The notes below the pieces were generated by a model. It was not told the origin of the DNA, made no database searches, and was given only the letters and a program-made list of their open reading frames with translations. From Muribaculaceae bacterium (GTDB lineage: Bacteria > Bacteroidota > Bacteroidia > Bacteroidales > Muribaculaceae): a stretch of 64,000 nucleotides of DNA. Positions 49,054-64,000 of the stretch are shown here, piece after piece. The stretch lies in contig JAFZHD010000021.1 in assembly GCA_017555085.1 (NCBI GenBank), forward strand, positions 1-64,000. Direction: 5' to 3'. The position numbers and the translations under genes were made by a program. The number at the start of each line of letters is the position of its first letter. The stretch's first letter is position 1.

Positions 49054-49076
49054 CGACATAAACATTATAGCATAAC

Positions 49077-49550
49077 ATGAAAACAATCAACAAATGGGTG
49101 GCTGTTGCGGCCATATTGTGTAGCATCGGCGCTTTGCTCTCGTGCAAGAATGCCACCCCCACAACTAACGGCGACGATGCCATTACCGAAACAGTCAGCA
49201 CCGAATTGCTCCGCACCGACCAAAGTTGGAACGGTGTCGACCTCCCCGACTACCCACAAGGCAAACCCGAATTGGTTGCCGTGAAATACATCATTCCCGC
49301 AGGACAAAAACTCGGCTGGCATCACCACGATGCTATGAACCATGGCGTGTTGGTGCGTGGCGAACTCACCATCATCGGCCTTGACGGACAAATAAAAACT
49401 ATGCACGAAGGCGATGTCGTGGTCGAAATGGTCGACTCTATTCATCATGGCGAAAACCGCGGCACTGAGCCTGTTGTTCTCTACATGTTCTATGTTTCGC
49501 AAAAAGGCCTTCCCCTCTCGGTTCCTCACCCCGAAATACCACTTGATTAA
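49077..49550 (+). CDS. cupin-domain lipoprotein
   Basis: 157-residue exported protein with a lipoprotein signal (lipobox LLSC near residue 23). A single small cupin barrel follows: metal-ligand motif 1 in GWHHHDAMNHGVLVRGELT, and motif 2 in VEMVDSIHHGENRGTEPVVL. Both histidine clusters are intact, so a bound metal is expected. Substrate and function are unknown. A strong terminator follows. Confidence 0.85.
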   Translation: MKTINKWVAVAAILCSIGALLSCKNATPTTNGDDAITETVSTELLRTDQSWNGVDLPDYPQGKPELVAVKYIIPAGQKLGWHHHDAMNHGVLVRGELTIIGLDGQIKTMHEGDVVVEMVDSIHHGENRGTEPVVLYMFYVSQKGLPLSVPHPEIPLD

Positions 49551-49576
49551 TCAGCAACATCTATTGCCGCATAACA

Positions 49577-49610
49577 AAACAGCCGCTCGGTTACTCCAAG
49601 CGGCTGTTTG
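49577..49610 (+). terminator. terminator after the cupin gene
   Basis: AAACAGCCGCT-CGGTTACTCCA-AGCGGCTGTTT followed by GTTTAT, 26 nt past the cupin stop codon. Confidence 0.82.
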
Positions 49611-49627
49611 TTTATCAATATGTGTTG

Positions 49628-49795
49628 TTATCGCTTAACAAATACTTTCTTGCCATTAACAACATAAACTCCGGGAGCAGTTACCTCAACCACACGACGG
49701 CCGTGAAGGTCATATATCACTTGCTCGGCGTTTGCAACAACATCAATGTTTTCAACCGCAGTTGTGGGATTGCGGTCAACCTCTATTGACTCAAA
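49628..49795 (-). pseudogene. orphan T9SS type A sorting-tail remnant
   Basis: Minus-strand frame of 55 codons with no start, bounded upstream by a stop (TGA at 49796-49798). It reads IEVDRNPTTAVENIDVVANA, then QVIYDLHGRRVVEVTAPGVY and VVNGKKVFVKR-stop, the hallmark of a C-terminal T9SS type A sorting domain (YDLxGRxV ... VNGKKxFVK). The rest of the parent gene is missing, so only the tail of a once secreted protein is left. It is unlike the tail on the LRR protein, so it was not copied from it recently. Confidence 0.85.
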
Positions 49796-49873
49796 TCACA
49801 CACCACCCACCTTTTACCTGCAACTATATTTGCCCAAACAAAAACACCATTTATTCCATTGGGTTAGGGGCAT

Positions 49874-49903
49874 AAAAAAGCCGAGGCGGAAGTCCGTCTC
49901 GGC
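49874..49903 (-). terminator. trpS terminator
   Basis: Minus strand: AGCCGAGACGGA-CTT-CCGCCTCGGCT followed by TTTTTATG. The 90 nt between it and the trpS stop codon holds further small palindromes (GAGGC-TGGT-GCCTC at about 49966-49980). Confidence 0.8.
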
Positions 49904-49992
49904 TGTATAGTAAATGTTTATGTTTTATGGTAGGCTTAGTGGTCATAGGTTAGGAACCGACTAAGCGAGGCTGGTGCCTCATATATAGAGTT

Positions 49993-51048
49993 TTAGTAAA
50001 ATTTCTTGATACCCATGATTTCGCGCACTTCGCTCAATGTCTTGGCTGCGCGTTCGCGAGCGCGTTCGGCACCTTGGCGCACTACGCGTGCGAGATATTC
50101 GTCGTCGTTTTGAATATCGAGAATGCGTTGGCGAATGGGGAGCGTTACTTTCAAGATGTCTTCGGCCAATTGTTTTTTCAAGTCGCCATAGCGAATTGAG
50201 CAATCGGCATAAGCGTCTTTGAATTGTTGCACCACTTCGGGGGCTGATGTAAGTTCCATCAATGTGAAGAGGTTTTGAATGGGTGCGCTGATAGGCGAAT
50301 TGGGTGCTTGGGGGCCTTCATCGGTCACTGCACGCATCACTTTCTTACGCAATACTTTTTCTTCGTCAATGAGGTAGATACAGTTACCTTCGCTCTTACC
50401 CATTTTGCCTGAACCGTCAAGACCGGGAACTTTCACTGCGTTGCCGCCAAAGTTGAAGTTTTCGGGTTCGGGGAAAAGGTCAACGCCATAGTATGAGTTG
50501 AAACGGCGAGCAAAGCGGCGAGTCAATTCCAAGTGTTGCTCTTGATCTTTACCCACGGGCACTTTGTGGGCTTTTTGAATGAGGATATCCACAGCCATGA
50601 GTGTGGGATATGTGAGCAAACCGGCATTTACGCGTTTGTTTGAGTCGGTACCGATAATTTCTTTTTCGATATTTTCGTCGTTATCGCTCTTGATGCCGAG
50701 TTGTTTGCGGGCTTTGTCTTTGAACGATGCTGTGCGCATCAATTCGCCGATACCTACATGCATATTGAGCAAGAGATAGAGTTCAGAGATTTCGGGAACA
50801 TCGCTCTGCACAAAGATTGTCGCCTTTTCGGGGTCAACGCCTGCTGCGAGATATTCGGCAAGAATATTCTTCACATTTGTGTGAAGTGTTTTGGGGTCGG
50901 GGTGAGTTGTGAGTGCATGAAGGTCGGCAATAAAAAAGAGACTGTCGTAGTCTTCTTGCATTTTCACAAATTTATTTAATGCACCGTAATAGTTGCCAAG
51001 GTGAAGGTTGCCTGTGGCACGGATGCCGCTAAGTACGATTTCTTTCAT
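49993..51048 (-). CDS. trpS: tryptophan--tRNA ligase
   Basis: Class I aminoacyl-tRNA synthetase, 351 residues. The HIGH-type motif is GNLHLGNYYGAL near residue 14 and the KMSKS-type motif GSGKMGKSEGN near residue 200; GGNAVKVPGL lies between. The C-terminal end has basic helical sequence. The start MKEIVLSGIRATG is preferred over an ATG 27 nt upstream, because a -7 box lies across that upstream start. It follows the nonulosonate operon but has its own promoter. Confidence 0.95.
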   Translation of the reverse strand: MKEIVLSGIRATGNLHLGNYYGALNKFVKMQEDYDSLFFIADLHALTTHPDPKTLHTNVKNILAEYLAAGVDPEKATIFVQSDVPEISELYLLLNMHVGIGELMRTASFKDKARKQLGIKSDNDENIEKEIIGTDSNKRVNAGLLTYPTLMAVDILIQKAHKVPVGKDQEQHLELTRRFARRFNSYYGVDLFPEPENFNFGGNAVKVPGLDGSGKMGKSEGNCIYLIDEEKVLRKKVMRAVTDEGPQAPNSPISAPIQNLFTLMELTSAPEVVQQFKDAYADCSIRYGDLKKQLAEDILKVTLPIRQRILDIQNDDEYLARVVRQGAERARERAAKTLSEVREIMGIKKFY

Positions 51049-51072
51049 TTGAGGTCTTTTAAATTTAGAGTG

Positions 51073-51080
51073 CAAAGTTA
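51073..51080 (-). promoter_or_regulatory. trpS promoter, -7 element
   Basis: Minus-strand TAACTTTG, 24 nt before the trpS start at 51048. The -33 is poor. Confidence 0.55.
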
Positions 51081-51134
51081 GGCAAAAACCACGAGATTAT
51101 ATAATTGCAAACCGAAAATATTCACTTTTATCAA

Positions 51135-51632
51135 TTAATACATCTCTTCAATTGTCGATTGCAACACATTGTTGTCAGCAAGAATCTTCTCGACAAACTC
51201 GCGAAACGCGCCGTTGCCGCCTCGCGCCTCGGTTACATATTTCACTTCGCTTTTGATATATGAGGGTGTGTTGGCAGGCGATGCGCTTTGTCCGACAAGA
51301 CGCAAAAGTTTCAAGTCGTTGACATCATCGCCGATGAATGCCACCTCATCGAGTGTAATGCCAATAGTGTCGCAGAGTTGACGAGCGACGGCCACTTTGT
51401 CTTTAACACCCAAAAAACAATGTTCTATTTTGAGTTTGTCAGCTCGGCTTTGCACAATGGGCGAATTTTCGCCTGTGATAATTGCCACGGGAATGTTGTG
51501 ATGGCGAAGCATCATCACGGCCATTCCGTCTTTGACACAAAAGCGTTTCATGTAGTCGCCCGTGGGGGTATAAAACATTCCCTCATCGGTCCACACTCCA
51601 TCAATATCTGTTATCACTAATTTGGGTAACAT
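51135..51632 (-). CDS. KdsC-like HAD phosphatase (candidate nonulosonate 9-phosphate phosphatase)
   Basis: 165-residue HAD subfamily IIIC phosphatase of KdsC type. Motif I DIDGVWTDEG carries the aspartate nucleophile. Then come the ITGENSPIV region, a conserved lysine in GVKDKVAVA and motif IV GDDVNDL. KdsC acts on KDO 8-phosphate. Here the gene is the last of a nonulosonic-acid operon, 7 nt after the CMP transferase gene, so a sugar-phosphate of that pathway is the likely substrate. If the synthase is LegI/NeuB-like and makes an unphosphorylated acid, the phosphatase role would be puzzling. A housekeeping KdsC placed here is the alternative. Confidence 0.75.
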   Translation of the reverse strand: MLPKLVITDIDGVWTDEGMFYTPTGDYMKRFCVKDGMAVMMLRHHNIPVAIITGENSPIVQSRADKLKIEHCFLGVKDKVAVARQLCDTIGITLDEVAFIGDDVNDLKLLRLVGQSASPANTPSYIKSEVKYVTEARGGNGAFREFVEKILADNNVLQSTIEEMY

Positions 51633-51639
51633 ATCTCGT

Positions 51640-52323
51640 TTATTTTTTTGTCATTAAAAATTGAGCATACTCCCAATCGTCGGGCGTATCTATATCAACG
51701 CTGTCGCGTGCCGACATCACATACTTGATGCGACGGTCAAACTGCGACAAATGTTTCTCGCGAAGCGATGCCACATTCATGACATACACTGCGCCATTAT
51801 ATTCCCACACTGTGGGGCAATCTTGCCGGCGGGCAAATCGCGCATTCATCAAGCTCTGCAAATATCCCGACTCATTTTCGTGAAACATCACATAGTAGGG
51901 ATTGCTGCGCGCCTCGGTCACCGACACCACCATGTCGCATTTAGCATCATACAATGCCAATGCCTCGGTCACATGTTGCGATGTGCGCATGGGTGATGTG
52001 GGTTGCAACAACACCACAGCATCATAATCAATGCCCTGTGCCGCATAATGGTCGAGTGCGTGAATAATCACTTCGTATGTACCCGAATAGTCTTGTGCAA
52101 GGCTATCGGGGCGCATAAAGGGTATTGCCAAGCCATATTCCTCAACCACACGGGCAATCTCGGCATCATCGGTTGACACGCAAATATCCTCATCGGCTGC
52201 GCCTGCCCCGCGGGCTGCATCAATGGCATAGGCTATCAAGGGTTTTCCGGCAAGCGGTTTTACATTTTTGCCAGGCACTCCTTTTGAGCCGCCTCGCGCC
52301 GGTATCAGATACAGCACTTTCAT
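51640..52323 (-). CDS. legF: CMP-nonulosonate cytidylyltransferase (LegF/NeuA-like)
   Basis: 227-residue CMP-sugar synthetase that activates a nonulosonic acid with CTP. The signature IPARGGSKGVPGKNV is at the N-terminus. VVLLQPTSPMRTSQHV and a C-terminal DSVDIDTPDDWEYAQ complete the family pattern. It overlaps the PtmE-like gene by 4 nt and precedes the phosphatase gene by 7 nt. LegF, NeuA and PseF are close in sequence. Legionaminic-type is inferred from the neighbouring LegB and PtmE-like genes. Confidence 0.85.
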   Translation of the reverse strand: MKVLYLIPARGGSKGVPGKNVKPLAGKPLIAYAIDAARGAGAADEDICVSTDDAEIARVVEEYGLAIPFMRPDSLAQDYSGTYEVIIHALDHYAAQGIDYDAVVLLQPTSPMRTSQHVTEALALYDAKCDMVVSVTEARSNPYYVMFHENESGYLQSLMNARFARRQDCPTVWEYNGAVYVMNVASLREKHLSQFDRRIKYVMSARDSVDIDTPDDWEYAQFLMTKK

Positions 52324-53366
52324 AGTTTGGTATATTTTATGAAATCTTGCGCTTTCTTGTAATCCTCATGGCGGCCAATGTCAATCCAATAGCCCACAAT
52401 GGGGAAGCATGTCACACGACAGCCGTCGTTGATGAGGCGTTGCATAAGATCGGTGGCATCGCAATGTGCATTGCGTTGAAGTTTTTTCAACACGCTGCGC
52501 TTAATCAAATATATGCCGCCGTTGGAATAATATGTGAATGTGGGCTTTTCCTGAAAAGATGTCACCACATTGTTATCGGTAGTCTGCATCACGGCATAGG
52601 GCACACTCACATTATAGGGAATTGATGCCACTGCCATATCCGAGTCTGTTTCTATAAAATGATTGTAAAATTCTTCCAAATCGATATTGGTAAACAGGTC
52701 AGAGTTCATCACAAGCACCGTGTCGTTTTTGAAATTATCGATTTTACTCACCGCACCGATTGTGCCCAACGGGGCATCTTCTTCGACATAACCGATTGTG
52801 GCATTCCATTTCTCACCGTTGCCAAAGTAAGCCTTTATCTGCTCGCCGAGGTAGCGCACCGAGAATGTGATATTGTCAATGCCATAACTGAGCATTCTAT
52901 CCACATTATGCTCCACGATAGGCTTTCCGCCCAATGGCAACAACGGTTTGGGGCAATTATCGGTCAACGGCTGCAAACGCTCTCCTCGACCACCGGCCAT
53001 AAGCACGCCGTCAATGGGCAACAGCCCTTTGATTTTTGTCAAATCAATCAATCGCGCGATGCGACCGTTCTCGTCGATATAGGGAATGAGATGAATGCCC
53101 GACTGTCTGATTTCTTTCAGCAACTTGGGCGTAGCCTGATTGGCCGCATCGATAAATCGGAATGAGCGATGACACACACCCTCAATCTTGTCGTCGAGTT
53201 TCACGCCCGCAATCAAGGCTCGGCGAATGTCGCCGTCGGTAATAGAGCCCACTACCCTTTCATCGGCATCAACGGCAAACAGTGTAAAACTGCGTGTTGC
53301 GTTCAAGCGATTGAGGGCTTCGAGCAATGTAGCCTCTTGGCTGATTATGTGGTCCGATATTTTCAT
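52320..53366 (-). CDS. ptmE: CBS-domain nucleotidyltransferase (PtmE-like, sugar-1-phosphate guanylyltransferase candidate)
   Basis: 348-residue protein with two CBS domains in residues 1-115 (MKISDHIISQEATLLEALNR, VVGSITDGDIRRALIAG). The nucleotidyltransferase domain follows (about 118-345: LMAGGRGERLQPLT, CPKPLLPLGGKPIVEH). This order is that of Campylobacter PtmE, which makes GDP-GlcN in the GDP-linked legionaminic acid route. The sequence alone does not prove the nucleotide or sugar. It lies 1 nt after the epimerase gene and overlaps legF by 4 nt. Confidence 0.8.
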   Translation of the reverse strand: MKISDHIISQEATLLEALNRLNATRSFTLFAVDADERVVGSITDGDIRRALIAGVKLDDKIEGVCHRSFRFIDAANQATPKLLKEIRQSGIHLIPYIDENGRIARLIDLTKIKGLLPIDGVLMAGGRGERLQPLTDNCPKPLLPLGGKPIVEHNVDRMLSYGIDNITFSVRYLGEQIKAYFGNGEKWNATIGYVEEDAPLGTIGAVSKIDNFKNDTVLVMNSDLFTNIDLEEFYNHFIETDSDMAVASIPYNVSVPYAVMQTTDNNVVTSFQEKPTFTYYSNGGIYLIKRSVLKKLQRNAHCDATDLMQRLINDGCRVTCFPIVGYWIDIGRHEDYKKAQDFIKYTKL

Positions 53367-53367
53367 A

Positions 53368-54522
53368 TTATTTTATATCGTAAAATCGTTTCTGTTTCAT
53401 CTGTGACAAATCACATTGTTGCAACACTTCAAATATGCGCGCAACCGTGTCGGGCTGCTCATAGGGATTTACAGCATTGCGTGCAATGGTTTGCCACTCT
53501 TGTGACAATGCGCCACGAATAGCCTTTTCGATGCTATCGACATCGGTGTTGCAGTCAATTACGCTATCGGCACGAAGGCGGCCTTTCTGACGGTCGCCGA
53601 TGTTTACTGTGGGAATGCCAAACGAGGGCACTTCCAATATGCCGCTCGATGAATTGCCTACGGCCGCTTTGACAAATTGCAATGCCGACAGATAACGCAT
53701 ATATCCAAGCGAGGTGTAGCAAGCCGCTTTGTCGCCGTTTGCTGCCACATACTCGTCAATCATTTTAATTATAATGCGACCGTCGCTATCAGAGTTTGGC
53801 TTTGTAAATATCACTCGACAGCCCACTCGGTCAATGGCTTCGAGCAACGCACCAAACTGTGTTTCGGCGCTATTGCGCTCCATTGTCACGGGGTGATAGG
53901 TTACCAAAATGCAGTCATCGCCGATTTCAAAACCGATGCTCTGTTCAAGCGACTGACGGTCGAGAAATTGAATTTGGCACATATTGTCAAGACCGATTGC
54001 ACCAAAGTTAAACACTCGGTCGGGTTGCTCGCCAAGTTGAATCACTCGCTGACGATATTCCTCGGCGCTTGTAAAATGCAGGTGACTCATTTTGCTGATG
54101 CTGTGACGGATGGCATCATCATACGCGCCCTCGGTCACATCACCGCCCGATATGTGAGCAATGGGTATTCCATACAACAAGGCTGCCGATGCCGCACCGA
54201 GCATCTCATATCTGTCGCCAAGTATCACCACCATATCAGGCGCAAGGTCTTCAAATGCATCGGCAAAACCGATGATACCCAATCCCAACGACTTGGTTGT
54301 GGCATTGCGAGTGTCTGACGACAACAGCATCTCCACCTTTTTGTCAATGTGAAAACCGTCGGACTCAATCTCGCGATAGGTCAATCCGAATTCAGGCGAC
54401 AAGTGCATATTTGTCGCAATTATCTGCAACTGCATTTCGGGGCAATCATTGATGCGTTTCATCAATTTGCTCAAGAGTCCATATTCGGCGCGAGTGCCGG
54501 TTATCACACATATCTTTTTCAT
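53368..54522 (-). CDS. legG: hydrolysing 2-epimerase (LegG/NeuC-like)
   Basis: 384-residue nucleotide-sugar 2-epimerase of the hydrolysing type, which releases NDP and gives a 2-epimerised free sugar. Motifs are ITGTRAEYGLL at the N-terminus, HISGGDVTEGAYDD and VKAAVGNSSSGILEVPSFG in the second Rossmann domain. The start MKKICVITGTRAEYG is 7 nt after the synthase stop codon; a longer frame would overlap the synthase gene. NeuC (UDP-GlcNAc) and LegG (GDP-sugar) share these motifs. The PtmE and LegB context favours LegG. Confidence 0.85.
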   Translation of the reverse strand: MKKICVITGTRAEYGLLSKLMKRINDCPEMQLQIIATNMHLSPEFGLTYREIESDGFHIDKKVEMLLSSDTRNATTKSLGLGIIGFADAFEDLAPDMVVILGDRYEMLGAASAALLYGIPIAHISGGDVTEGAYDDAIRHSISKMSHLHFTSAEEYRQRVIQLGEQPDRVFNFGAIGLDNMCQIQFLDRQSLEQSIGFEIGDDCILVTYHPVTMERNSAETQFGALLEAIDRVGCRVIFTKPNSDSDGRIIIKMIDEYVAANGDKAACYTSLGYMRYLSALQFVKAAVGNSSSGILEVPSFGIPTVNIGDRQKGRLRADSVIDCNTDVDSIEKAIRGALSQEWQTIARNAVNPYEQPDTVARIFEVLQQCDLSQMKQKRFYDIK

Positions 54523-54529
54523 ATACGGT

Positions 54530-55546
54530 CTAAATTTCAATCGGTTCGTCGGGCTGATAGTCGCGAGAGGCTTGTCGGCCAACGACATCATACCATTTCA
54601 TTGGCGATAGTCCGTTTCCTGGACGCTTTACCGCGAGATTTTCTTCTGTAAACACCTCGCCGGCTTTTATCGCCACGGCAGCGACAATGCTTTTGCGTGC
54701 TGCCACTATATTTTTTGCTTCCGAATCAGTTACACGCTTCAAGCCTGTACCCAATGCTTTTTCGATATTTCTTATTGCCAAAACCATTGCCTTCAACTCA
54801 TCGGGCAACAACGATGCCTTATGGTCGGGGCCGGGCAGATTGCGGTCGAGGGTGAAATGCTTTTCAATCACTTCTGCACCCAATGCCACAGCAGCCACAG
54901 GCACCTCAATGCCTAATGTGTGGTCGCTATATCCAATTGCAACGCCCAACTCATTGCGCATAGTAATCATCGCGTTGAGATTGACATCGGCAAACGGTGT
55001 CGGATACTCGGTATTGCAGTGGAGCAATGTTATATCTTTTCGGTCAACGCCCTCGCCAAGCAAGAAATCTAACGACTCTCTGACAGTATCAAGGTCGCTC
55101 ATGCCAGTTGACATCACTATCGGACGGTGTGTTGCGGCAATCTTGCGCAAGTAGGGCAAATTAGTGATTTCGCCCGAGGGCACTTTCCAAAAATCCACGC
55201 CCAAACTGTCAAGAAAATCAACACTTGGCAAATCAAATGCTGTTGACAAAAACTTGACACCTTTTTGCTTGCAATAGTCCACCAAAGCCAAGTGGTCGGC
55301 GTGACTCAACTCCAATTTGCGCAACATCGCAAGTTGTGAAGAGTCCTCACTCTGCGCTTCACGGCGTTGATAGTCAGCTTGTGCAGCCGATGCCGTAACA
55401 AGCAGTTCGGAACAGAAAGTTTGGAATTTGACATAATCGACACCGGCATCAGCCGCAGCATCTACCATTTTCTTTGCCATTTCGAGCGAGCCGTTGTGAT
55501 TAACGCCCGCTTCGGCAATGATTAGTGTGTGTCGATTGTTGTTCAT
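54530..55546 (-). CDS. legI: nonulosonic acid synthase (LegI/NeuB-like)
   Basis: 338-residue PEP-dependent synthase. The TIM-barrel domain starts LIIAEAGVNHNGSLEMAKK and includes LHCNTEYPTPFADVNL, GYSDHTLGIEVPVAAVALG and EKHFTLDRNLPGPDHKASL. A C-terminal antifreeze-like SAF domain (about 275-335) ends VKRPGNGLSPMKWYDVVG. NTEYPTP fits NeuB/LegI rather than PseI. It makes a 9-carbon acid from PEP and the LegG product. 4-nt overlap with the acyltransferase gene; 7 nt before legG. Confidence 0.9.
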   Translation of the reverse strand: MNNNRHTLIIAEAGVNHNGSLEMAKKMVDAAADAGVDYVKFQTFCSELLVTASAAQADYQRREAQSEDSSQLAMLRKLELSHADHLALVDYCKQKGVKFLSTAFDLPSVDFLDSLGVDFWKVPSGEITNLPYLRKIAATHRPIVMSTGMSDLDTVRESLDFLLGEGVDRKDITLLHCNTEYPTPFADVNLNAMITMRNELGVAIGYSDHTLGIEVPVAAVALGAEVIEKHFTLDRNLPGPDHKASLLPDELKAMVLAIRNIEKALGTGLKRVTDSEAKNIVAARKSIVAAVAIKAGEVFTEENLAVKRPGNGLSPMKWYDVVGRQASRDYQPDEPIEI

Positions 55547-56172
55547 ATTTTGAGTTTTGCAGGGTTTCCTATATATGTGCCTTTATCAGCGAGTGATTTT
55601 ACGACTACCGCGCCCGCGCCGACAACAATATCTGAGGCAATCGACAACACTTGCGCCACCACGGTGTTGCTACCGATAAACACTCGGTCGCCGACACTGC
55701 TGCCGCCATTAATGACTGCATGGGTTGAGATGTGGCAAAAATCGCCGACAACAGCATCGTGCTCGATAGTGCATCGGGTGTTTAATATGCACTGCTCTCC
55801 CACTTTTGCACCAGCATTTACCACAGCATTGTGCATCACAACTGTGCCCTCGCCTATTGTTGCATAGCGCGACACATGGGCCAACGGCGATATGATTGTG
55901 GCAAATCGGCCTCCGGCTTTCACTACCTCATCAACAAGATGTTGACGAACAGCCGCACTTTTGATTTGGCCAACTGTGATAACAAATTCGGCTTCATCAA
56001 CATATCGGTCTATCACATCATTACTGCCAAGGACAGGATAGCCCAACACATTATCAGGCTCAAATTGAGGTTGCTCTATTATGCCCAATATCTCACGGCC
56101 CGATGCCTCAATGACATCAATCACCGAGCGACAATGGCCACCGCCACCTATCAATATGAGTTTTTTAGACAT
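55543..56172 (-). CDS. NeuD/LegH-like hexapeptide acyltransferase
   Basis: 209-residue protein of the sugar O/N-acyltransferase family. The N-terminal PglD-like domain begins MSKKLILIGGGGHCRSVIDV. The C-terminal left-handed beta-helix has repeated hexapeptides (IGEGTVVMHNAVVNAGAKVG, CHISTHAVINGGSSVGDRVF). In a legionaminic-type route it could N-acetylate the 4-amino group (LegH); in sialic-acid operons NeuD acetylates O-positions. The start at 56172 gives an 8-nt overlap with legB. It overlaps legI by 4 nt. Confidence 0.82.
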   Translation of the reverse strand: MSKKLILIGGGGHCRSVIDVIEASGREILGIIEQPQFEPDNVLGYPVLGSNDVIDRYVDEAEFVITVGQIKSAAVRQHLVDEVVKAGGRFATIISPLAHVSRYATIGEGTVVMHNAVVNAGAKVGEQCILNTRCTIEHDAVVGDFCHISTHAVINGGSSVGDRVFIGSNTVVAQVLSIASDIVVGAGAVVVKSLADKGTYIGNPAKLKI

Positions 56173-57163
56173 TGTAAATTCCCGATTTATATTTTTTGAG
56201 ATTTTCCTCTTTTGTAAACCAATCAATTGTTTCTTGCAATCCGCGACTTATATCATATTCGGGCGACCAATCGGTGAGCGATTTAATCTTGCTGTTATCG
56301 CCCCAAAGGCGGAATACCTCGGAGTTTTTAGGGCGCAAACGCTGTGTATCTTCAATGAAGTTAACCTCACGGCCCATGAGTTTGGCAATGAGATTGAGAG
56401 TATCGCGCATGCTGATTTCATAATTGCTGCACACATTGACTTCTTGGCCAATCACGCCGTCGCATTTTGACAAATGAATAAATCCGCGGCAAGTGTCTTT
56501 GACATAATTAAAGTCGCGTGTGGGTGTCAAATCGCCGAGTTTGATTTCGCTTGCACCGTTAGCAATCTGCGTGATGATTGTAGGGATAATCGCACGCGCG
56601 CTTTGACGAGGACCGTAGGTGTTAAACGGACGGACAATCACTACCGGCAATTGAAATGCGTTGTAAAAACTCATAGCAATGGCATCGGCACCAATCTTTG
56701 TTGCCGAATAGGGCGACTGAGGTTGCTTGGGGTGATTTTCATCAATGGGCACATATTGTGCTGTGCCATACACCTCTGATGTCGATGTTACCAACAAGCG
56801 TTTAACACCATTTTTCATCGCCGCCTGACACATGTTGAGAGTGCCTTTGATGTTGGTGTCGACATAACTGTCGGGCGCTACATAAGAATAAGGAATAGCT
56901 ATGAGAGCCGCCAAGTGATACACAATCTCGACATCGCGAGTTATGTGCTCACAGAAATTGGCATCGCGCACATCGCCTGTCACAATTTCAAGATTGGGAT
57001 GTTTCACATCTTCAAGCCAACCCCAATTATTAAACGAGTTATATTGAGCCAATGCTCTGACATCATAACCCTCTTCAAGCAACATTTCGGTGAGATGCGA
57101 ACCAATAAATCCGTCGGCACCTGTTACCAACACCTTAATTCCTTTGTTTTCAGTCACTGCCAT
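56165..57163 (-). CDS. legB: NAD-dependent 4,6-dehydratase (LegB-like)
   Basis: 332-residue extended SDR enzyme. The Rossmann motif is TGADGFIGSHL and the active site YSATK (in SPYSATKIGADAIAM). STSEVYGTAQYVPIDE and RPFNTYGPRQSARAIIP are characteristic of the LegB subgroup. The predicted reaction is 4,6-dehydration and 6-deoxygenation of an NDP-GlcNAc, in the GDP route. The next step normally needs the LegC PLP aminotransferase, which is not in this operon. 4 nt after the DUF115-like gene. Confidence 0.85.
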   Translation of the reverse strand: MAVTENKGIKVLVTGADGFIGSHLTEMLLEEGYDVRALAQYNSFNNWGWLEDVKHPNLEIVTGDVRDANFCEHITRDVEIVYHLAALIAIPYSYVAPDSYVDTNIKGTLNMCQAAMKNGVKRLLVTSTSEVYGTAQYVPIDENHPKQPQSPYSATKIGADAIAMSFYNAFQLPVVIVRPFNTYGPRQSARAIIPTIITQIANGASEIKLGDLTPTRDFNYVKDTCRGFIHLSKCDGVIGQEVNVCSNYEISMRDTLNLIAKLMGREVNFIEDTQRLRPKNSEVFRLWGDNSKIKSLTDWSPEYDISRGLQETIDWFTKEENLKKYKSGIYNV

Positions 57164-57167
57164 AGTG

Positions 57168-58001
57168 TCAATCCATTATTTTGCGTTCAAAGGCATCGAT
57201 AAACGAGCCTTTTGTTATGTTATAAATCTTTTTATTCAGTCGTGATGCATAGCGTTTTATGTCGTGATATGACTTAAACGCAATGTGCATGCTCAACAAC
57301 AAGTCATGCAAATGCTTTGTTGACACATACTGCTCTGCACCTTTTTTGTCATAGAAATGATTGAGGTCTTCCATAACGATATTATCGTCGTTAACCCAAA
57401 TTTCTTTAAGCCACGAATGGTCGGCTCCGGCTACATAAATCACTTTATAGTCCATAGCCAATCCGGTCATGATTGACGGTATCAACACATTGCGCGGACG
57501 GGGCATACCCAAGCCCGATTTATAGCATCGGTGGGCAAACCAATCAAAGCCCTCAACAGGCGTCATGTTGAAATAACTGACTTTTATATTGGGGCGTGAT
57601 GCCAACTTTGATTTCCATTTATCGCTCTTGCGCGCGTCCATTGACACATACAATGTCATGTCCCAATCGGTTGACAATGCCATTGCATCAAACAATCGGT
57701 TGCAGTGATTGTCGTCGGCGAAAAACAACGGGTCGGCAACAAGATAATATGACGGCTTTAATTGTGTGTAATACTCCGAAAGCACGGCATAGTTTACCGC
57801 CAACAAATCTTTGTCGAGCAAAAAATCGCGGTGATTTTCAATGAGCGGGCGCAATGACGGACCATTGCCCAACACCACCAAGTCACGACCCGGCTGTGCA
57901 GGCTTTTTAACGGTGACACGACGCGATTTGAGCACAATCTTCACTATGCTCAACAGTGTCTGCCACATCTTTTCCATCAGTATTAACGCCTTATCCATCA
58001 A
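57168..58001 (-). CDS. DUF115/Maf-like protein, candidate nonulosonyltransferase
   Basis: 277-residue protein with a Rossmann-like start LVVLGNGPSLRPLIENHRDF, then LLAVNYAVLSEYYTQLKP, YYLVADPLFFADD, VIYVAGADHSWLKEIWV and a basic C-terminus. GNGPSL near the N-terminus is shared by DUF115/MptE-like proteins, which include the Maf nonulosonyltransferases of flagellated bacteria, and by GT42 sialyltransferases such as CstII. Neither assignment can be fixed by eye. Its position, directly upstream of legB in an operon that makes a CMP-activated nonulosonate, makes a transferase role attractive. There is no signal peptide; the N-terminal 30 residues are amphipathic and basic. Confidence 0.6.
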   Translation of the reverse strand: MMDKALILMEKMWQTLLSIVKIVLKSRRVTVKKPAQPGRDLVVLGNGPSLRPLIENHRDFLLDKDLLAVNYAVLSEYYTQLKPSYYLVADPLFFADDNHCNRLFDAMALSTDWDMTLYVSMDARKSDKWKSKLASRPNIKVSYFNMTPVEGFDWFAHRCYKSGLGMPRPRNVLIPSIMTGLAMDYKVIYVAGADHSWLKEIWVNDDNIVMEDLNHFYDKKGAEQYVSTKHLHDLLLSMHIAFKSYHDIKRYASRLNKKIYNITKGSFIDAFERKIMD

Positions 58002-58013
58002 TCAAGATTTATG

Positions 58014-58472
58014 CTACCATTTTGTGAATTTATATCCTATCACACGATTGTCGGCCGCAACATATTTGAGTTGCATCGATGAGCCCGACAACGATACTAT
58101 TTCAAGATCAAATATCGAGTTGGCGGGCAAATATGTTTCGGGCAACGGGCTGTAATAAAACGAGCCTTGCTTGTGGTTGTCGTCCCAATGAGTGTAATTA
58201 AGTTGTAACACATTGCCTATCTCTTTCCATGTGCCCCAACATTCAGCCGCAGTGTGTGCCGATTCGTTCACGCGCAACATACACACCACTTCATTCTGAA
58301 ATTTCCAGAACACATTACCGGCATAATCGGCTTCTTCGACACCGTCAACCTCTATCGACAACATTTTCCATGTGCCAAAATAAGGACCGATATCACCATT
58401 ATTATGCGTACACGACGACAATGCCGCCATGCTCAACATTATAATTAATATGTGTAACGCTCTTTTCATCAT
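58014..58472 (-). CDS. lipocalin-like lipoprotein
   Basis: 152-residue exported lipoprotein: signal MMKRALHILIIMLSMAALSSC with lipobox ALSSC. A small beta-barrel sequence follows (YFGTWKMLSIEVDGVE, VFWKFQNEVVCMLRVN, WGTWKEIGNVLQLNYTHWDD), as in the lipocalin-like families of Bacteroidales. Ligand unknown. It overlaps the Wzi-family gene by 4 nt and lies 12 nt before the DUF115-like gene, so it is tied to the surface-glycan operon. A role in handling glycan or lipid intermediates at the outer membrane is only a guess. Confidence 0.7.
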   Translation of the reverse strand: MMKRALHILIIMLSMAALSSCTHNNGDIGPYFGTWKMLSIEVDGVEEADYAGNVFWKFQNEVVCMLRVNESAHTAAECWGTWKEIGNVLQLNYTHWDDNHKQGSFYYSPLPETYLPANSIFDLEIVSLSGSSMQLKYVAADNRVIGYKFTKW

Positions 58473-59992
58473 TTGCTATTGCTAAAATCGCCGCGATAAG
58501 ACACCGAAAGCATCGCGCCGAAATTATCGCCATAAAGTTTGCCTTGGTCCAATGCCAACTGCGCTTTGAAGTTCAAGCCCTCAACCATTGGCATCGAGTA
58601 TTTCAGTTCAACCATTGCCGATGTGCATTCGACAGGAGTCACACGCGGAACAAATATATTGCCCCACGATTTGCGATAACTACCCATCACGCGATATTCC
58701 AATCCTTTAACAATATCACCTTTAACGGCCACATGCACACCGCGGAAACGGTTATCAACATATTCAAGCCAGCCGTCTTGGTTATACAATGGCGAACGGA
58801 ACATCGGCGAACCGATTGACATGCCATAATGTGCATATCCATTATAGTTCATATTATTATAGTAGTTATCGGCACCGGTTGCATCGGTGTCAACAATAGT
58901 TGTTCCGACATTATCTTCCGAGTCCCAATGCATAGGGCCTGATTGGTTGGTGTAATCCATAAACTCGACAACCACTCCGTTAACAATGCCGGGTTGCGAA
59001 CGGCGGTATTCAACACCCCACAATCCGTCAAAGCCGTTGAGTTTGCCGATACCCGAACCGTCTTCCCACGGCCACTGAAAATAAGCCTTTAACTCGTCAT
59101 TGTTTTTGAAACGATAACGAGCCATTAAATCCCAACTGCCCAAGTGATTGCCTTTTACATAGCCTTCTTCACCTGTTTTGGGGATAAACATATCAAAAAA
59201 GTCACGGAATAGCGATTTACGCACATCGGTGCGCCACAACTCTCCATTGCGATATCGATAGGTTGTACCGCGATATTGTCCGGCTGCTTGCGGACCAAAT
59301 GTCACCGAGAACGGTTGCGACGGCATCGTGCGGAAATAGCAACGCTTATAGGTGTACCATGTGCCTTGCGACAATCGGTTGCCATAATATCCATAACGGT
59401 CGGCAAGCCATTCGTCATCGGTCATCATGCCATAAGATATTTCACCTTGAATTTGCAACCATCCGTTAGTAAACGGAATGTTTTGGAAATCAACAAAGCC
59501 GACTCTCACCTCGGGAATGGGACGGGAATTGCCGCTTTGAATCAAGTCACCGCTTGTCAATTCGTTGTCAAGCATTGCCGATTCATATTCTTTCAATCCG
59601 AGAGTCAAGAACACGCCACGATACTTTATTTCGCCATATAATTGCTGAATCCAAGCATAATCGTGGTGCTCATTGTGGGTATAGAAACTTTTTGTGTCAC
59701 TGTCATAGGCAACATAATCGGCACCTTCATTCCAACCGCCGATTAAGTCAACGCCAAAGCCCCACGAAAAGCGACGGCTTAAATCCATATCGCGCCACAC
59801 AGCACCACGGGTCAATGCCGAATTTTTCTGCGGCATTATACCATGGTTGTTTGACGCAATATAATATGGAGCGAACTCACCCGTCGAGCCGTTGCCCATC
59901 ACAGTAGCCTCATATTCAATGGCTACTTGCGAGTTCATGGGCAGCGATGATAGCATCACAACCGCTATCAATATTGCTCTCACGAGTTTCAT
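58469..59992 (-). CDS. capsule assembly Wzi-family outer-membrane protein
   Basis: 507-residue outer-membrane beta-barrel with a signal peptide (MKLVRAILIAVVMLSSLPMNS). Many amphipathic, aromatic-rich strands follow (RRFSWGFGVDLIGGWN, YDYAWIQQLYGEIKYRG, FRGVHVAVKGDIVKGLEYRV), ending VSYRGDFSNSK. The N-terminal ATVMGNGSTGEFAPYYIASN is characteristic of the Bacteroidota Wzi family. Wzi in Proteobacteria anchors capsule to the outer membrane. The gene overlaps both neighbours by 4 nt, so it is fixed in the operon. Confidence 0.82.
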   Translation of the reverse strand: MKLVRAILIAVVMLSSLPMNSQVAIEYEATVMGNGSTGEFAPYYIASNNHGIMPQKNSALTRGAVWRDMDLSRRFSWGFGVDLIGGWNEGADYVAYDSDTKSFYTHNEHHDYAWIQQLYGEIKYRGVFLTLGLKEYESAMLDNELTSGDLIQSGNSRPIPEVRVGFVDFQNIPFTNGWLQIQGEISYGMMTDDEWLADRYGYYGNRLSQGTWYTYKRCYFRTMPSQPFSVTFGPQAAGQYRGTTYRYRNGELWRTDVRKSLFRDFFDMFIPKTGEEGYVKGNHLGSWDLMARYRFKNNDELKAYFQWPWEDGSGIGKLNGFDGLWGVEYRRSQPGIVNGVVVEFMDYTNQSGPMHWDSEDNVGTTIVDTDATGADNYYNNMNYNGYAHYGMSIGSPMFRSPLYNQDGWLEYVDNRFRGVHVAVKGDIVKGLEYRVMGSYRKSWGNIFVPRVTPVECTSAMVELKYSMPMVEGLNFKAQLALDQGKLYGDNFGAMLSVSYRGDFSNSK

Positions 59993-60945
59993 ACCTCTGC
60001 AAATAAGGTAGCCTCTTCGGGCTTGAATGTCGCGATATGGCGCTCTTTCTTTTCTTCAAGAATTTCTTCTATCTTGATAAAAATACCTGTTTCTTCAACG
60101 TCTCCAAATTCATCGTTGATAGCTGTGCCAAACACCTTCATTGTGGGCGACAAGTTCATATAGGCATTTACCAAGGGAGGAATATTACTACCTGCCTCGC
60201 GTACAGACTTGTTCAAAATCTTATAGTCTTCTTTGAAGTTTTCTTCAACAAACAACTGTTTCATTGCCTCAGCATCAGTATCGGTTTGCAATGCTGAGAT
60301 TGGGCGAACGAGTTCTTCGGCATCGGGGAAGTGTTTGTTCAAGAAATAAAGAATCATGTTGCGGCATTGAGAGCAGTAACTTGGATACATTGTCACTTTG
60401 CCAAAGAAGTATTTCATCTCGGGATAAAGCACCGTCAACGCGCCAAGACCGTCCCACAAGTTATCAAGAGCGAAAAGCGCTTTTGCACCTGCTTTTGACG
60501 ATTGATATTCGGGGCGCACAAATGAGCGACCGAGTTCGAGTGTGCATGGGAGATATTCGTTGAGAAACTCTTCCGAGAAATTAAACATGTGTGAAGTGGC
60601 AATGCGAGGACGGCCATCTTCATCAAATGAGATATTGTCGCCTGTGATGTAGCGATAACCGCCGAGAATCATTTCAGCATCGGGGTCCCACACTATCAGC
60701 TGTTTGCAAGGCGTTTCCATTGTATCAAACTCGTCAATATCGAGTTCTTTACCTGTACCGCCACCAGCTGCACGGAACGAAATTTCGCGCAAGCGACCGA
60801 TTTCGCGCATGATGTTGGGCGAATCAAATGCATCTACAATATAAATGTGATTATTTGCCTTATTGGTTACACGCAAAAACTTATCGGGTGTAAGTTCTGC
60901 TTTTATCAACGAGAGAGAGGTTTCTTCTGCAATTTTTTCTTCCAT
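59989..60945 (-). CDS. glsB: GNAT-type N-acyltransferase (GlsB-like, glycine lipid synthesis)
   Basis: 318-residue protein of the OlsB/hemolysin-like acyltransferase group. Conserved stretches are MREIGRLREISFRAAGGGTG, QLIVWDPDAEMILGGYRYI and CTLELGRSFVRPEYQ, then YFFGKVTMYPSYCSQCRNMI. Bacteroides GlsB N-acylates glycine with a 3-hydroxy fatty acid as the first step of glycine-lipid synthesis. The pairing with a PlsC-type gene 25 nt upstream supports this, though ornithine-lipid synthesis is a related possibility. It overlaps the Wzi-family gene by 4 nt. Confidence 0.75.
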   Translation of the reverse strand: MEEKIAEETSLSLIKAELTPDKFLRVTNKANNHIYIVDAFDSPNIMREIGRLREISFRAAGGGTGKELDIDEFDTMETPCKQLIVWDPDAEMILGGYRYITGDNISFDEDGRPRIATSHMFNFSEEFLNEYLPCTLELGRSFVRPEYQSSKAGAKALFALDNLWDGLGALTVLYPEMKYFFGKVTMYPSYCSQCRNMILYFLNKHFPDAEELVRPISALQTDTDAEAMKQLFVEENFKEDYKILNKSVREAGSNIPPLVNAYMNLSPTMKVFGTAINDEFGDVEETGIFIKIEEILEEKKERHIATFKPEEATLFAEV

Positions 60946-60970
60946 GGGGGTTAGTCTTCTACAACAGTAA

Positions 60971-61807
60971 TTACTGCTCTTTCAGTTTATAAACTAATTC
61001 TTTAATTTCGGCAGCCTGCTCTTTGGCATACTTGCCGTTTTTCAACGCCTGATATTCAATGGGTTTACCTACAATCATTTCAAATCGGGCATCTTCTTTG
61101 TTAAGCATCTCACGGGGCAACAATATCATTTCGACATTGAACTTCAAGCCCAAGCGAGTTCTAAACTTTGCAAATTTATAAAAAAATGATGAATTTTGGG
61201 CATTAAAATACACTGGAATTACATCTCGCTGATGTTCCACCGCCTTGTTCACAAACATTTTCTTCCATTCAAGGTCACAAATTGAGCCGTCAGACTGTCG
61301 GCGTGAACACATTCCCGCAGGGAACACAATTACGGGGTCGTCGCTTGCAAATGCCTCATCGACATCACACGATGCCTTGCGGCTTTGGCGGCCGTGCTTG
61401 TTGATAGGAACAAACACACCTTTCAAAGGCGAGATTGCCAACAGCAAGTCATTAACCACAAATTTCACTTTACCACCGTAAAGGCGAGTCAAATAGTCAA
61501 TCATCACAACACCGTCAAGAGCGCCGAGCGGATGGTTACTTACCAACAAAAAGCGTTTATTTTCAACAGATGGCAAGTTTTCGGCATTCTTGATTTCGTA
61601 TTTAATTCTCAACTGGTCGAGCAATCCGCGGCAAAAATCGGCGTCATAAAGACCACGAAGGCCGACAAGCATCTCATTCATTCGTTTTTGACAAATGATA
61701 TTCTCAACCCATCTGATTAAAAAACGGGGGATATAACGATAATGTCGAGGCAATCTCTTTCGAATGATTCCGTCAACATCTATTTTTATAGGTTCAACAT
61801 CTTTCAT
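60971..61807 (-). CDS. glsA: PlsC-type O-acyltransferase (GlsA-like, glycine lipid synthesis)
   Basis: 278-residue membrane-associated acyltransferase. The acceptor motif is NHPLGALDG (His and Asp of the HxxxxD type, with one extra residue). KGVFVPINKHG and VFPAGMCSRR form the substrate-binding blocks. In Bacteroides, GlsA adds the second, ester-linked acyl chain to N-acylglycine. First gene of the twelve-gene operon. The start MKDVEPIKIDVDG lies 5 nt downstream of a TAAATTTG -7 box, so the message appears leaderless. Lyso-phosphatidate acyltransferase is the alternative. Confidence 0.75.
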   Translation of the reverse strand: MKDVEPIKIDVDGIIRKRLPRHYRYIPRFLIRWVENIICQKRMNEMLVGLRGLYDADFCRGLLDQLRIKYEIKNAENLPSVENKRFLLVSNHPLGALDGVVMIDYLTRLYGGKVKFVVNDLLLAISPLKGVFVPINKHGRQSRKASCDVDEAFASDDPVIVFPAGMCSRRQSDGSICDLEWKKMFVNKAVEHQRDVIPVYFNAQNSSFFYKFAKFRTRLGLKFNVEMILLPREMLNKEDARFEMIVGKPIEYQALKNGKYAKEQAAEIKELVYKLKEQ

Positions 61808-61811
61808 GGTG

Positions 61812-61819
61812 CAAATTTA
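61812..61819 (-). promoter_or_regulatory. -7 element of the glsA-to-phosphatase operon
   Basis: Minus-strand TAAATTTG (61819-61812); the start codon begins at 61807, so transcription should start at or within a base or two of the ATG. No good -33 TTG at 19-20 nt. Confidence 0.6.
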
Positions 61820-61831
61820 CAAGTTTTTTCG

Positions 61832-61839
61832 TACTTTTG
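61832..61839 (+). promoter_or_regulatory. -7 element of the divergent membrane-protein gene
   Basis: TACTTTTG with the ATG at 61844, the same 4-nt gap as on the other strand. The two -7 boxes are 12 nt apart and point outward. Confidence 0.55.
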
Positions 61840-61843
61840 CACT

Positions 61844-63268
61844 ATGACCAGGCAGATAAAACACATATTGACTGGCAATATCTTGTATATTGTTGCTATT
61901 GCAGCCACTTTTTTGCTATTTCCGGGAGCATCAATATGGCCAACTGCCATTGCGCTGATAGGTATTTGGGCCATGATTGCCTACATCTACAAACTGTCTG
62001 GGTCGACAAATCTTTGCGGCTGGTGGACTTTATTAATTTCTGCGACATATCTTGCAGTCGGCATTATCGCCAATGTAAATCACTATACATCCATCGTTAG
62101 TTCCAACACATCTATCCCATATCTGCAAAACCCCGACTCGGCCATCTATTATTTTGATGCGATGAAAACTTTTGACAGTTCAATCGGGGCAAGCGCGCCT
62201 GCCCACCGTCACGGATATGGCATGTTGATTGCCGCGCTGTGGCATCTGACTGACATGACAATAGTGTCGCCGCTTATTGTCAACATGACTTTTATTCTGT
62301 TGAGCATCATCGCAAGCGGCATCATTGCCCGACGCATACTTTCGGCCCACATTGGCAAAGACAGCCGTTGGATTACATCATGCGCTATGATAATGACAGC
62401 CGCGGTGTGTTATTATCTCAATTCAGGCACTCTATTACTCAAAGAAGCAGGCATTTGCTTTGCCTTGGCCGTCTGCACTCTCGGCGCAACAGCACTGATT
62501 TCGCAGCCGTCAAACAAGGCCAAAACTGTCACACTTTGGGTTGGACTGATTGTCGGGTTGGCATTGCTGACATTCTTGCGACACTCCTACATTTTGTTTG
62601 TTGCAACAGCAATTATCGTTATGACTCCGTGGAAGCGAAACAAGATAGCCCCTGCCCTATCAATGCTATTGCTTTGTGCCGCGGCTTGGGGTGTAACTCA
62701 ACTGCTGATGCACGATTACGAAATAAGCCGACAAGCGGCCAACATTGTGAACGGAAACGGCGTTGCCAATTCCTATTTCCATGACCACCCGCAACATGCC
62801 ACCTACAACAACATGGTGGGCGACTATTTCTCTTACACCGTCGCACAGCGGTTGCTATGGCTGCCTATAAGCATCATCACACAATTTCTGACACCGTTCC
62901 CATGGAACTTTGGCCGCGACCTCATTTATGGCTATACACTTGATTATGCCCACATTACCTATCCGTGGTACATAGTCGGAGCAATGGTGTTGTTTTACAT
63001 TATTTGGGCATGGCGAAAATCGCCCAAATCACTAATTCGCATCACCCTCGCCGGCATCATTCTTTGGTGCATACCAGCCTACCTGTTTGCCGGCACAGTA
63101 TCCCGATATGCATTGCCAATGTTACCGTTGCTCGTTCCGGCAGCGGTATATGTATGGGCACAATTCAGCACCAAACGCTCGTTTCACATCTACGGCGGCA
63201 TATATGCTATCGTACTGTGTGTCACCCTAATCATTTGCCATAACCTTCAACACCTCGGCATGCAATGA
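61844..63268 (+). CDS. multi-membrane-span protein, GT-C glycosyltransferase-like
   Basis: 474-residue protein with about ten to twelve predicted membrane spans from residue 10 to the end. A periplasmic loop after the second or third span reads YLQNPDSAIYYFDAMKTF, and a second loop contains DYEISRQAANIVNGNG and NNMVGDYFSYTVAQRLLWLP. An acidic residue in the first loop is typical of GT-C transferases, but no specific family was recognised; an O-antigen-flippase or polymerase type is also possible. The start is the ATG at 61844; an earlier in-frame ATG would lie inside the divergent glsA coding region and ahead of the -7 box. Its stop overlaps the GT2 gene start. Confidence 0.6.
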   Translation: MTRQIKHILTGNILYIVAIAATFLLFPGASIWPTAIALIGIWAMIAYIYKLSGSTNLCGWWTLLISATYLAVGIIANVNHYTSIVSSNTSIPYLQNPDSAIYYFDAMKTFDSSIGASAPAHRHGYGMLIAALWHLTDMTIVSPLIVNMTFILLSIIASGIIARRILSAHIGKDSRWITSCAMIMTAAVCYYLNSGTLLLKEAGICFALAVCTLGATALISQPSNKAKTVTLWVGLIVGLALLTFLRHSYILFVATAIIVMTPWKRNKIAPALSMLLLCAAAWGVTQLLMHDYEISRQAANIVNGNGVANSYFHDHPQHATYNNMVGDYFSYTVAQRLLWLPISIITQFLTPFPWNFGRDLIYGYTLDYAHITYPWYIVGAMVLFYIIWAWRKSPKSLIRITLAGIILWCIPAYLFAGTVSRYALPMLPLLVPAAVYVWAQFSTKRSFHIYGGIYAIVLCVTLIICHNLQHLGMQ

Positions 63269-64000
63269 AAATATCGGTAATCACAGCAACACGCAACAAT
63301 GCCGCAACTCTTGAAGCAACAATCAAGAGCGTGATGCAACAAACCTACAACGACATCGAACTCATCATTGTCGACGGGGCAAGCTCCGACAATTCGCTTG
63401 AAATAATAGCCAGTTGGCAACAACTCCACCCCGATAAAATCAAATATATTTCAGAGCCCGACAGCGGAGTGTACAACGCCATCAACAAAGGTATCAAAAT
63501 GACCAACGGCGACATTATAGGCACTCTGCACGGCAACGACACTTTCGCCTCATCCGATATACTATTGCAAGTAGCACAAGCCATGAGCAATAGCGACATC
63601 GACTTTGTGTATGGCGACATTTCATACCGCGACAAAGCAGGCAAAAAAGTGCGTTATTATTCTTCGGCCGACTATAACAAATCAATGCTCCGTTACGGCA
63701 TCGCACCGCCCCACCCCTCGCTATATGCACGCAAAGAGGTATTTGACACTATCGGCCTATACAAAGAGAGCTATCTCATTGCCGCCGATTTTGAATTTTT
63801 CATTCGCCTGATGATAGCCAACAATCGCCCGTCACAATATCTGCCACTCGAAATGGTTACAATGAGCATGGGCGGACTGTCAACCACTCTGCGACACCGC
63901 ATTTTCACTAACAACCGCGAAAAATATCGTGCACTACGCGAAAACGGCATCAGAGTTTGCCCGCTATCCTTACTGAAACGCTACTTTTACATTTACAAAT
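63265..64000 (+). CDS. family 2 glycosyltransferase, partial (runs off right edge)
   Basis: At least 245 residues in the window, no stop reached. The GT-A fold starts MKISVITATRNNAATLEATI, with VDGASSDNSLEII and the acceptor-side NGDIIGTLHGNDTFASS, DFVYGDISYRD and HPSLYARKEVFDTIG. This is the colanic-acid WcaE-like subgroup of GT2. It begins within the previous gene's stop (ATGA, 4-nt overlap), which suggests translational coupling. It is probably a surface-polysaccharide transferase; the sugar is unknown. Confidence 0.88.
   Translation, partial: MKISVITATRNNAATLEATIKSVMQQTYNDIELIIVDGASSDNSLEIIASWQQLHPDKIKYISEPDSGVYNAINKGIKMTNGDIIGTLHGNDTFASSDILLQVAQAMSNSDIDFVYGDISYRDKAGKKVRYYSSADYNKSMLRYGIAPPHPSLYARKEVFDTIGLYKESYLIAADFEFFIRLMIANNRPSQYLPLEMVTMSMGGLSTTLRHRIFTNNREKYRALRENGIRVCPLSLLKRYFYIYK

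Follow-up and report, generated by a model that had tools for sequence, protein, structure and literature searches.

A run of twelve minus-strand genes in a bacterium from the gut family Muribaculaceae (GenBank assembly GCA_017555085.1; the window analysed here is the whole 64,000-nucleotide stretch at positions 1 to 64,000 of contig JAFZHD010000021.1) reads best as a Muribaculaceae-specific surface locus, a reading given a probability of roughly 0.58. It comprises a hub of a predicted outer-membrane barrel of the sugar-binding type and a lipocalin-type lipoprotein, glycine-lipid genes on one side, an exchangeable nonulosonate (sialic-acid-like) cassette on the other, and likely one promoter. 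Gene order and family assignments were read directly, the junctions recur across genera, and two relatives carry another cassette at the corresponding position. The genome measures 2.34 Mb and is 99.86% complete, the window lying on its contig C7. From glsA onwards, the genes are:

60971..61807, minus strand: GlsA, lyso-glycine-lipid O-acyltransferase (NCBIfam NF053697 equivalog, 354.1 bits, cut-off 260)
59989..60945, minus strand: GlsB, glycine N-acyltransferase (NCBIfam NF053696 equivalog, 521.1 bits, cut-off 300)
58469..59992, minus strand: Wzi-like outer-membrane beta-barrel, hub of the conserved locus
58014..58472, minus strand: gene 4, small lipocalin-type lipoprotein (PF16585 Lipocalin_8, 34.0 bits, cut-off 27.2)
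57168..58001, minus strand: gene 5, predicted cytidine monophosphate (CMP)-nonulosonate transferase with a Maf/GT42-like fold
56165..57163, minus strand: LegB, NAD-dependent sugar-nucleotide 4,6-dehydratase (TIGR04180, 507.5 bits, cut-off 475)
55543..56172, minus strand: NeuD/PglD-type acetyltransferase (TIGR03570, 214.8 bits, cut-off 160.8)
54530..55546, minus strand: LegI/NeuB-type nonulosonate synthase (PF03102; TIGR03569, 494.7 bits, cut-off 399.65)
53368..54591, minus strand: LegG-type hydrolysing 2-epimerase (TIGR03568, 484.1 bits, cut-off 235.9)
52320..53366, minus strand: PtmE/LegE-like protein with CBS and nucleotidyltransferase domains (PF00571, PF00483), called PtmE in the preliminary description
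51640..52323, minus strand: LegF-like CMP-nonulosonate synthetase (PF02348; TIGR03584 (PseF), 165.4 bits, under the cut-off of 205.7)
51135..51632, minus strand: HAD phosphatase of the KDN-9-phosphate type (NF058599, 223 bits, cut-off 180; best PDB match 3e81, E 1.6e-47)

All twelve open reading frames (ORFs), from 61807 to 51135, are intact where a preliminary description of this DNA had placed them, and its account of gaps of at most 25 nucleotides (nt) and overlaps of 4 to 8 nt is borne out by the computed distances (25, -4, -4, 12, 4, -8, -4, -62, 1, -4 and 7 nt in gene order). The -62 nt overlap at LegG vanishes, leaving a gap of 7 nt, if translation starts at Met24, the counterpart in the alignment of residue 1 in the solved homologue 5zlr. 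The one -7 promoter box described earlier at 61819-61812 (TAAATTTG, 61812..61819, minus strand) is present, ending 4 nt ahead of the glsA ATG. It also recurs: by eye, six of eight distinct related loci have a -7-type box 4-5 nt ahead of the likely glsA start (L082, L083, L104, L071, L081 and L131), preceding an upstream in-frame ATG of glsA in L104 and L081; the box of L124 lies about 15 nt from the likely start, and none was seen ahead of glsA in L128. Between glsB and the Wzi-like gene the stop and start codons overlap (-4 nt). The minus-strand terminator-like sites within the operon fall inside genes (21 terminator-like sites over 48000-64000, against 16.6, sd 4.1, in shuffles). A scan for sigma-70-type promoters gave 30 sites against 30.9 in shuffles, no excess, and the four further matches to TAnnTTTG inside the operon abut no start codon. 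The twelve genes are likely one operon with one promoter.

Gene order was compared in 59 Muribaculaceae genomes, with GlsB found in 55, the barrel in 57 and NeuB of any type in 50. In 29 of 54 genomes no more than 300 bp separate GlsB from the barrel gene, an adjacency present in 18 genera, and in 30 of 49 the barrel gene has NeuB at a distance of at most 5 kb. All three come together, with GlsB at most 7 kb from NeuB, in 12 of 46 genomes from 7 genera, so that the gene-order check proposed in the preliminary description finds glsAB and the leg genes joined beyond this genome. Among linked genomes, G040 differs in gene order and G009 carries NeuB of a second type. The same genes as in the window are spread over two contigs in G010 (L109, L085), G004 matches as far as its short contig reaches, and L117 of G020 holds a similar run without glsAB. 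Among the named loci, which are the best 80 of 451, the lipocalin gene follows the Wzi-like gene in 76, GlsB precedes the barrel in 44 of 73 readable loci, and NeuB follows it in 43 of 69 readable ones. Lipid, hub and sugar genes occur together in the named isolate Muribaculaceae Isolate-013 (NCI) (L153). In a wider sample of 297 Muribaculaceae genomes, 288 encode the barrel and 216 NeuB, tallies that count presence and did not enter the linkage figures. Barrel and lipocalin lipoprotein are the hub, to which the lipid module and the sugar cassette attach separately, often together. An accident of one genome is ruled out by the gene order in the 59 family genomes and 80 named loci.

Eight metagenome records with Muribaculaceae-type loci (L117, L141, L147, L149, L157, L168, L170 and L180) bear titles that look wrong, namely Pseudoflavonifractor, Staphylococcus, Lachnospiraceae, Clostridium, Lachnoclostridium, Odoribacter, Alistipes and Paenibacillus.

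The foremost alternative is that gene order was inherited with no shared function, the glycine-lipid genes merely sitting beside a surface-glycan locus. A barrel tree built by a quick method requires 5 changes of one junction and 7 of the other, where 200 shuffles never gave fewer than 14 and 15, so both junctions are mostly inherited. Linkage of the lipid genes to the hub showed no positive association with that of the sugar genes in the 64 loci readable on both sides (21 with both, 20 with lipid only, 17 with sugar only, 6 with neither; p 0.11), each linkage following the tree. GlsB occurs without NeuB in 8 of the 59 genomes, and in the glsB regions read, which cover 20 of the 40 genomes from other families, blastp found no barrel, lipocalin or nonulosonate gene. 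Against this stand the codon overlap of GlsB and barrel, the lack of any gap above 25 nt and the spread of the glsB-barrel adjacency over genera, which make inheritance without shared function somewhat improbable. The lipid and sugar products are likely made together, because their genes probably share an operon and many genera of the family retain parts of this neighbourhood. The interpretation in the preliminary description is thereby partly supported: co-expression is likely as far as operon and junctions are concerned, and its legionaminic-type sugar, with no LegC in the operon, is a likely label.

The adjacent GlsA and GlsB each exceed the curated cut-off of an equivalog model, confirming the earlier naming of GlsA/GlsB-like acyltransferases. 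In Bacteroides thetaiotaomicron, glsB and glsA produce glycine lipid, and the portion of that report consulted names no nonulosonate (PMC10191378). Both enzymes are common to the two organisms, judging from parts of two reports (PMC10191378, PMC11631085), and are adjacent in the window, which differs in joining them to barrel and nonulosonate genes; this contrast rests on the 20 other-family loci lacking the join, the B. thetaiotaomicron neighbourhood being unread. Outside Muribaculaceae (L208-L227), glsAB is often neighboured by ORFs of about 700, 300 and 630 amino acids, a different recurring context.

The window barrel matches the Wzi fold, shared with Wzi of the Escherichia coli group 1 capsule (2ynk), from which it differs in being paired with a lipocalin-type lipoprotein. 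Its earlier assignment to the Wzi family holds for the fold. The family model PF14052 gives no hit for the window protein and 78.6 bits (cut-off 30.1) for the L081 homologue. No match to wza-wzb-wzc was found among the twelve operon genes, the remaining genome not having been searched for them. Gene 4 has a lipobox (LSSC) legible in its sequence, and the lipocalin fold is often lipid-binding.

A fold search was used for gene 5 because its match to PDB sequences was only a weak profile match to Cst-I (E 0.14). Over most of its length the predicted fold is that of the Maf/GT42 nonulosonate transferases (5mu5, Cst-I, CstII), to which it is only 12-15% identical, with 277 residues against 632 in Maf. 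PF01973, listed for some homologues, does not match gene 5, and the L081 homologue scores 22.9 bits (cut-off 34.6). From its predicted fold, gene 5 looks like a candidate nonulosonate transferase. The preliminary annotation is accordingly corrected to a transferase-like gene 5, a lipocalin-type lipoprotein as gene 4, a KDN-9-phosphate phosphatase, by family model, as the last gene, and the absence of LegC.

The sugar cassette retains most of its earlier annotation: LegB, LegI and LegG score above their cut-offs, and the LegF-like and PtmE-like proteins have the expected Pfam domains, but LegF falls under the TIGR03584 cut-off and PtmE is a putative name. LegI is the sole NeuB match (PF03102) in the genome, and its best plasmid match by tblastn (58% identity) has no informative name. 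The CMP-legionaminic acid pathway of Campylobacter jejuni includes LegG, LegI, LegF and PtmE-type enzymes. These types and LegB also occur in the window, in one run, to which the window adds the Wzi-like barrel, the lipocalin and the glycine-lipid genes. The C. jejuni pathway is described, in the part of the source consulted, as six enzymes acting from GDP-GlcNAc through LegB and then LegC (PMC9298399). The window operon differs from it in that none of its twelve genes encodes LegC. Three full-length DegT aminotransferases lie elsewhere in the genome, on contigs C4, C12 and C51 (one LegC-like, one DesI-like and one with a mixed match); the best LegC candidate, on contig C4, reaches 385.7 bits, under the cut-off of 420. 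That cut-off was passed in 2 of 61 genomes, both outside Muribaculaceae, and in 0 of 37 family genomes. In none of the 80 named loci do the 6 kb downstream of the barrel gene contain LegC, and among annotated loci only G060, outside the family, has LegC inside the cluster (551 bits). Legionaminic acid is therefore a likely label and not a result. Inside the G060 cluster, a 493-amino-acid ORF (L093:7011-8492) combines DUF4062 and Fic-like C-terminal domains.

All 42 LegI-bearing named loci have LegB next to LegI; NeuD occurs in 10 of these, an ATP-grasp gene in 32 and LegC in none. In most loci read, the ATP-grasp gene (e.g. L095:10059-11063) replaces NeuD beside LegB and LegI, and its product could link the sugar to an amino acid. 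In 37 of the 42, none of LegG, LegF and PtmE lies within 6 kb downstream. By hand count, 27 of the 28 family genomes that have a LegI-type synthase also have LegF-type genes (E <1e-35), as does 1 of the 9 lacking such a synthase; in 18 of the 27 these genes are on another contig. The pathway therefore appears split in many genomes, the window showing the consolidated form.

That the operon instead makes N-acetylneuraminic acid is improbable. NeuC (LegG), NeuB (LegI), NeuA (LegF) and NeuD would be enough, with LegB serving another sugar; LegI and LegG exceed the cut-offs of the equivalog models for NeuB and NeuC, and the missing LegC fits. The synthase and epimerase of the LegC-bearing G060 cluster, however, score 519 and 478 bits, close to LegI and LegG of the window, so these models do not separate N-acetylneuraminic from legionaminic enzymes. 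The nearest solved structure to LegG is a diacetylbacillosamine 2-epimerase (5zlr, 360 bits; human enzyme 4zht, 175 bits), and the constant pairing of LegB with LegI also argues against this sugar.

Cassette exchange may have left a trace in the last gene, which passes the cut-off of the B. thetaiotaomicron KDN-9-phosphate phosphatase family (NF058599). Its best structural match, 3e81, is presumably that B. thetaiotaomicron phosphatase. No separate KDN-9-phosphate synthase was found in the window's genome, which has one NeuB match, 33% identical to NeuB of the KDN-type cassette in L081. L108, the G009 locus, carries the remaining genes of a KDN-type cassette; there and in L115, the slot after barrel and lipocalin contains a gene-5 homologue, a CMP-transferase-family gene, a second-type NeuB and a KDN-type phosphatase 73% (L108) or 71% (L115) identical to that of the window. 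The KDN-type label denotes a predicted substrate, assigned by family model for the phosphatase and by Pfam for the other two genes. From these sequences, the window phosphatase may be left over from a KDN-type cassette. G009 and G010 have in common the gene after the cassette, a short-chain dehydrogenase (91% identical), which in the window's genome sits on contig C29. An in-place cassette swap is likely rather than certain, since the G010 cassette is split over contigs.

In the proposed surface locus, LegB, an aminotransferase from elsewhere, NeuD, LegG, LegI, PtmE and LegF would yield a CMP-activated legionaminic-type acid, which gene 5 would transfer to a glycan of the cell surface. Retaining this glycan at the outer membrane, or assisting in its assembly there, would be the task of the Wzi-like barrel, partnered by the lipocalin lipoprotein. 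The glycine lipid produced by GlsB and GlsA would be a membrane lipid under shared regulation, a molecule separate from the glycan.

The boldest alternative, one surface glycolipid, follows the preliminary suggestion of a shared glycolipid or capsule; the former is conceivable but unsupported, and very unlikely. Glycine lipid would be the base or the anchor of a nonulosonate glycan, and barrel and lipocalin would handle the resulting molecule. The common operon agrees with this, as do a lipocalin-type protein and a Wzi-type barrel encoded between the lipid and sugar modules. In 15 of 39 glsB-linked loci, moreover, a divergent gene-5 homologue lies upstream of the barrel gene, at most 4.5 kb away, by a stricter-overlap count that links 39 of 73 loci to GlsB and misses loci where an early start had been called for the barrel ORF. 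Against it, GlsB occurs without NeuB as stated above, NeuB occurs without GlsB in 3 of 59 genomes, and B. thetaiotaomicron produces its glycine lipid through glsB and glsA with no nonulosonate named in the consulted part of the source (PMC10191378). Equally unlikely is a sialylated amino-acid lipid of Muribaculaceae whose nonulosonate glycan is presented on glycine lipid, barrel and lipocalin being specialised to take up the lipid part and expose the sugar part.

Glycine lipids are described as host-receptor ligands in parts of two reports (PMC10191378, PMC11631085), and sialic-acid-like sugars might, according to part of a third, serve as host mimics (PMC12871550). Given a conserved locus coupling both, with swappable cassettes and a small candidate nonulosonate transferase, one can test whether these commensals of the gut present sugars resembling those of the host, and what keeps the genes for lipid and sugar together. 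A literature search, outside which most subscription papers lay, found no paper joining 'glycine lipid' with 'nonulosonic' or 'Muribacul' with 'legionaminic'.

Upstream of glsA, the window continues with plus-strand features:

61832..61839, plus strand: divergent -7 box (TACTTTTG), 4 nt ahead of the chosen start of the next protein
61844..63268, plus strand: divergent hydrophobic protein without Pfam match, its start at 61844 chosen from homologues (the ORF itself runs from 61742)
63265..63999, plus strand: family 2 glycosyltransferase (PF00535), running past the window end

The start codons of glsA and the divergent gene are 36 bp apart (61807-61844), with a -7 box 4 nt upstream of each. The spacing of these paired boxes suggests leaderless transcripts in both directions. 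Homologues of the divergent hydrophobic protein lie near glsA in L071, L081, L082, L083 and L104.
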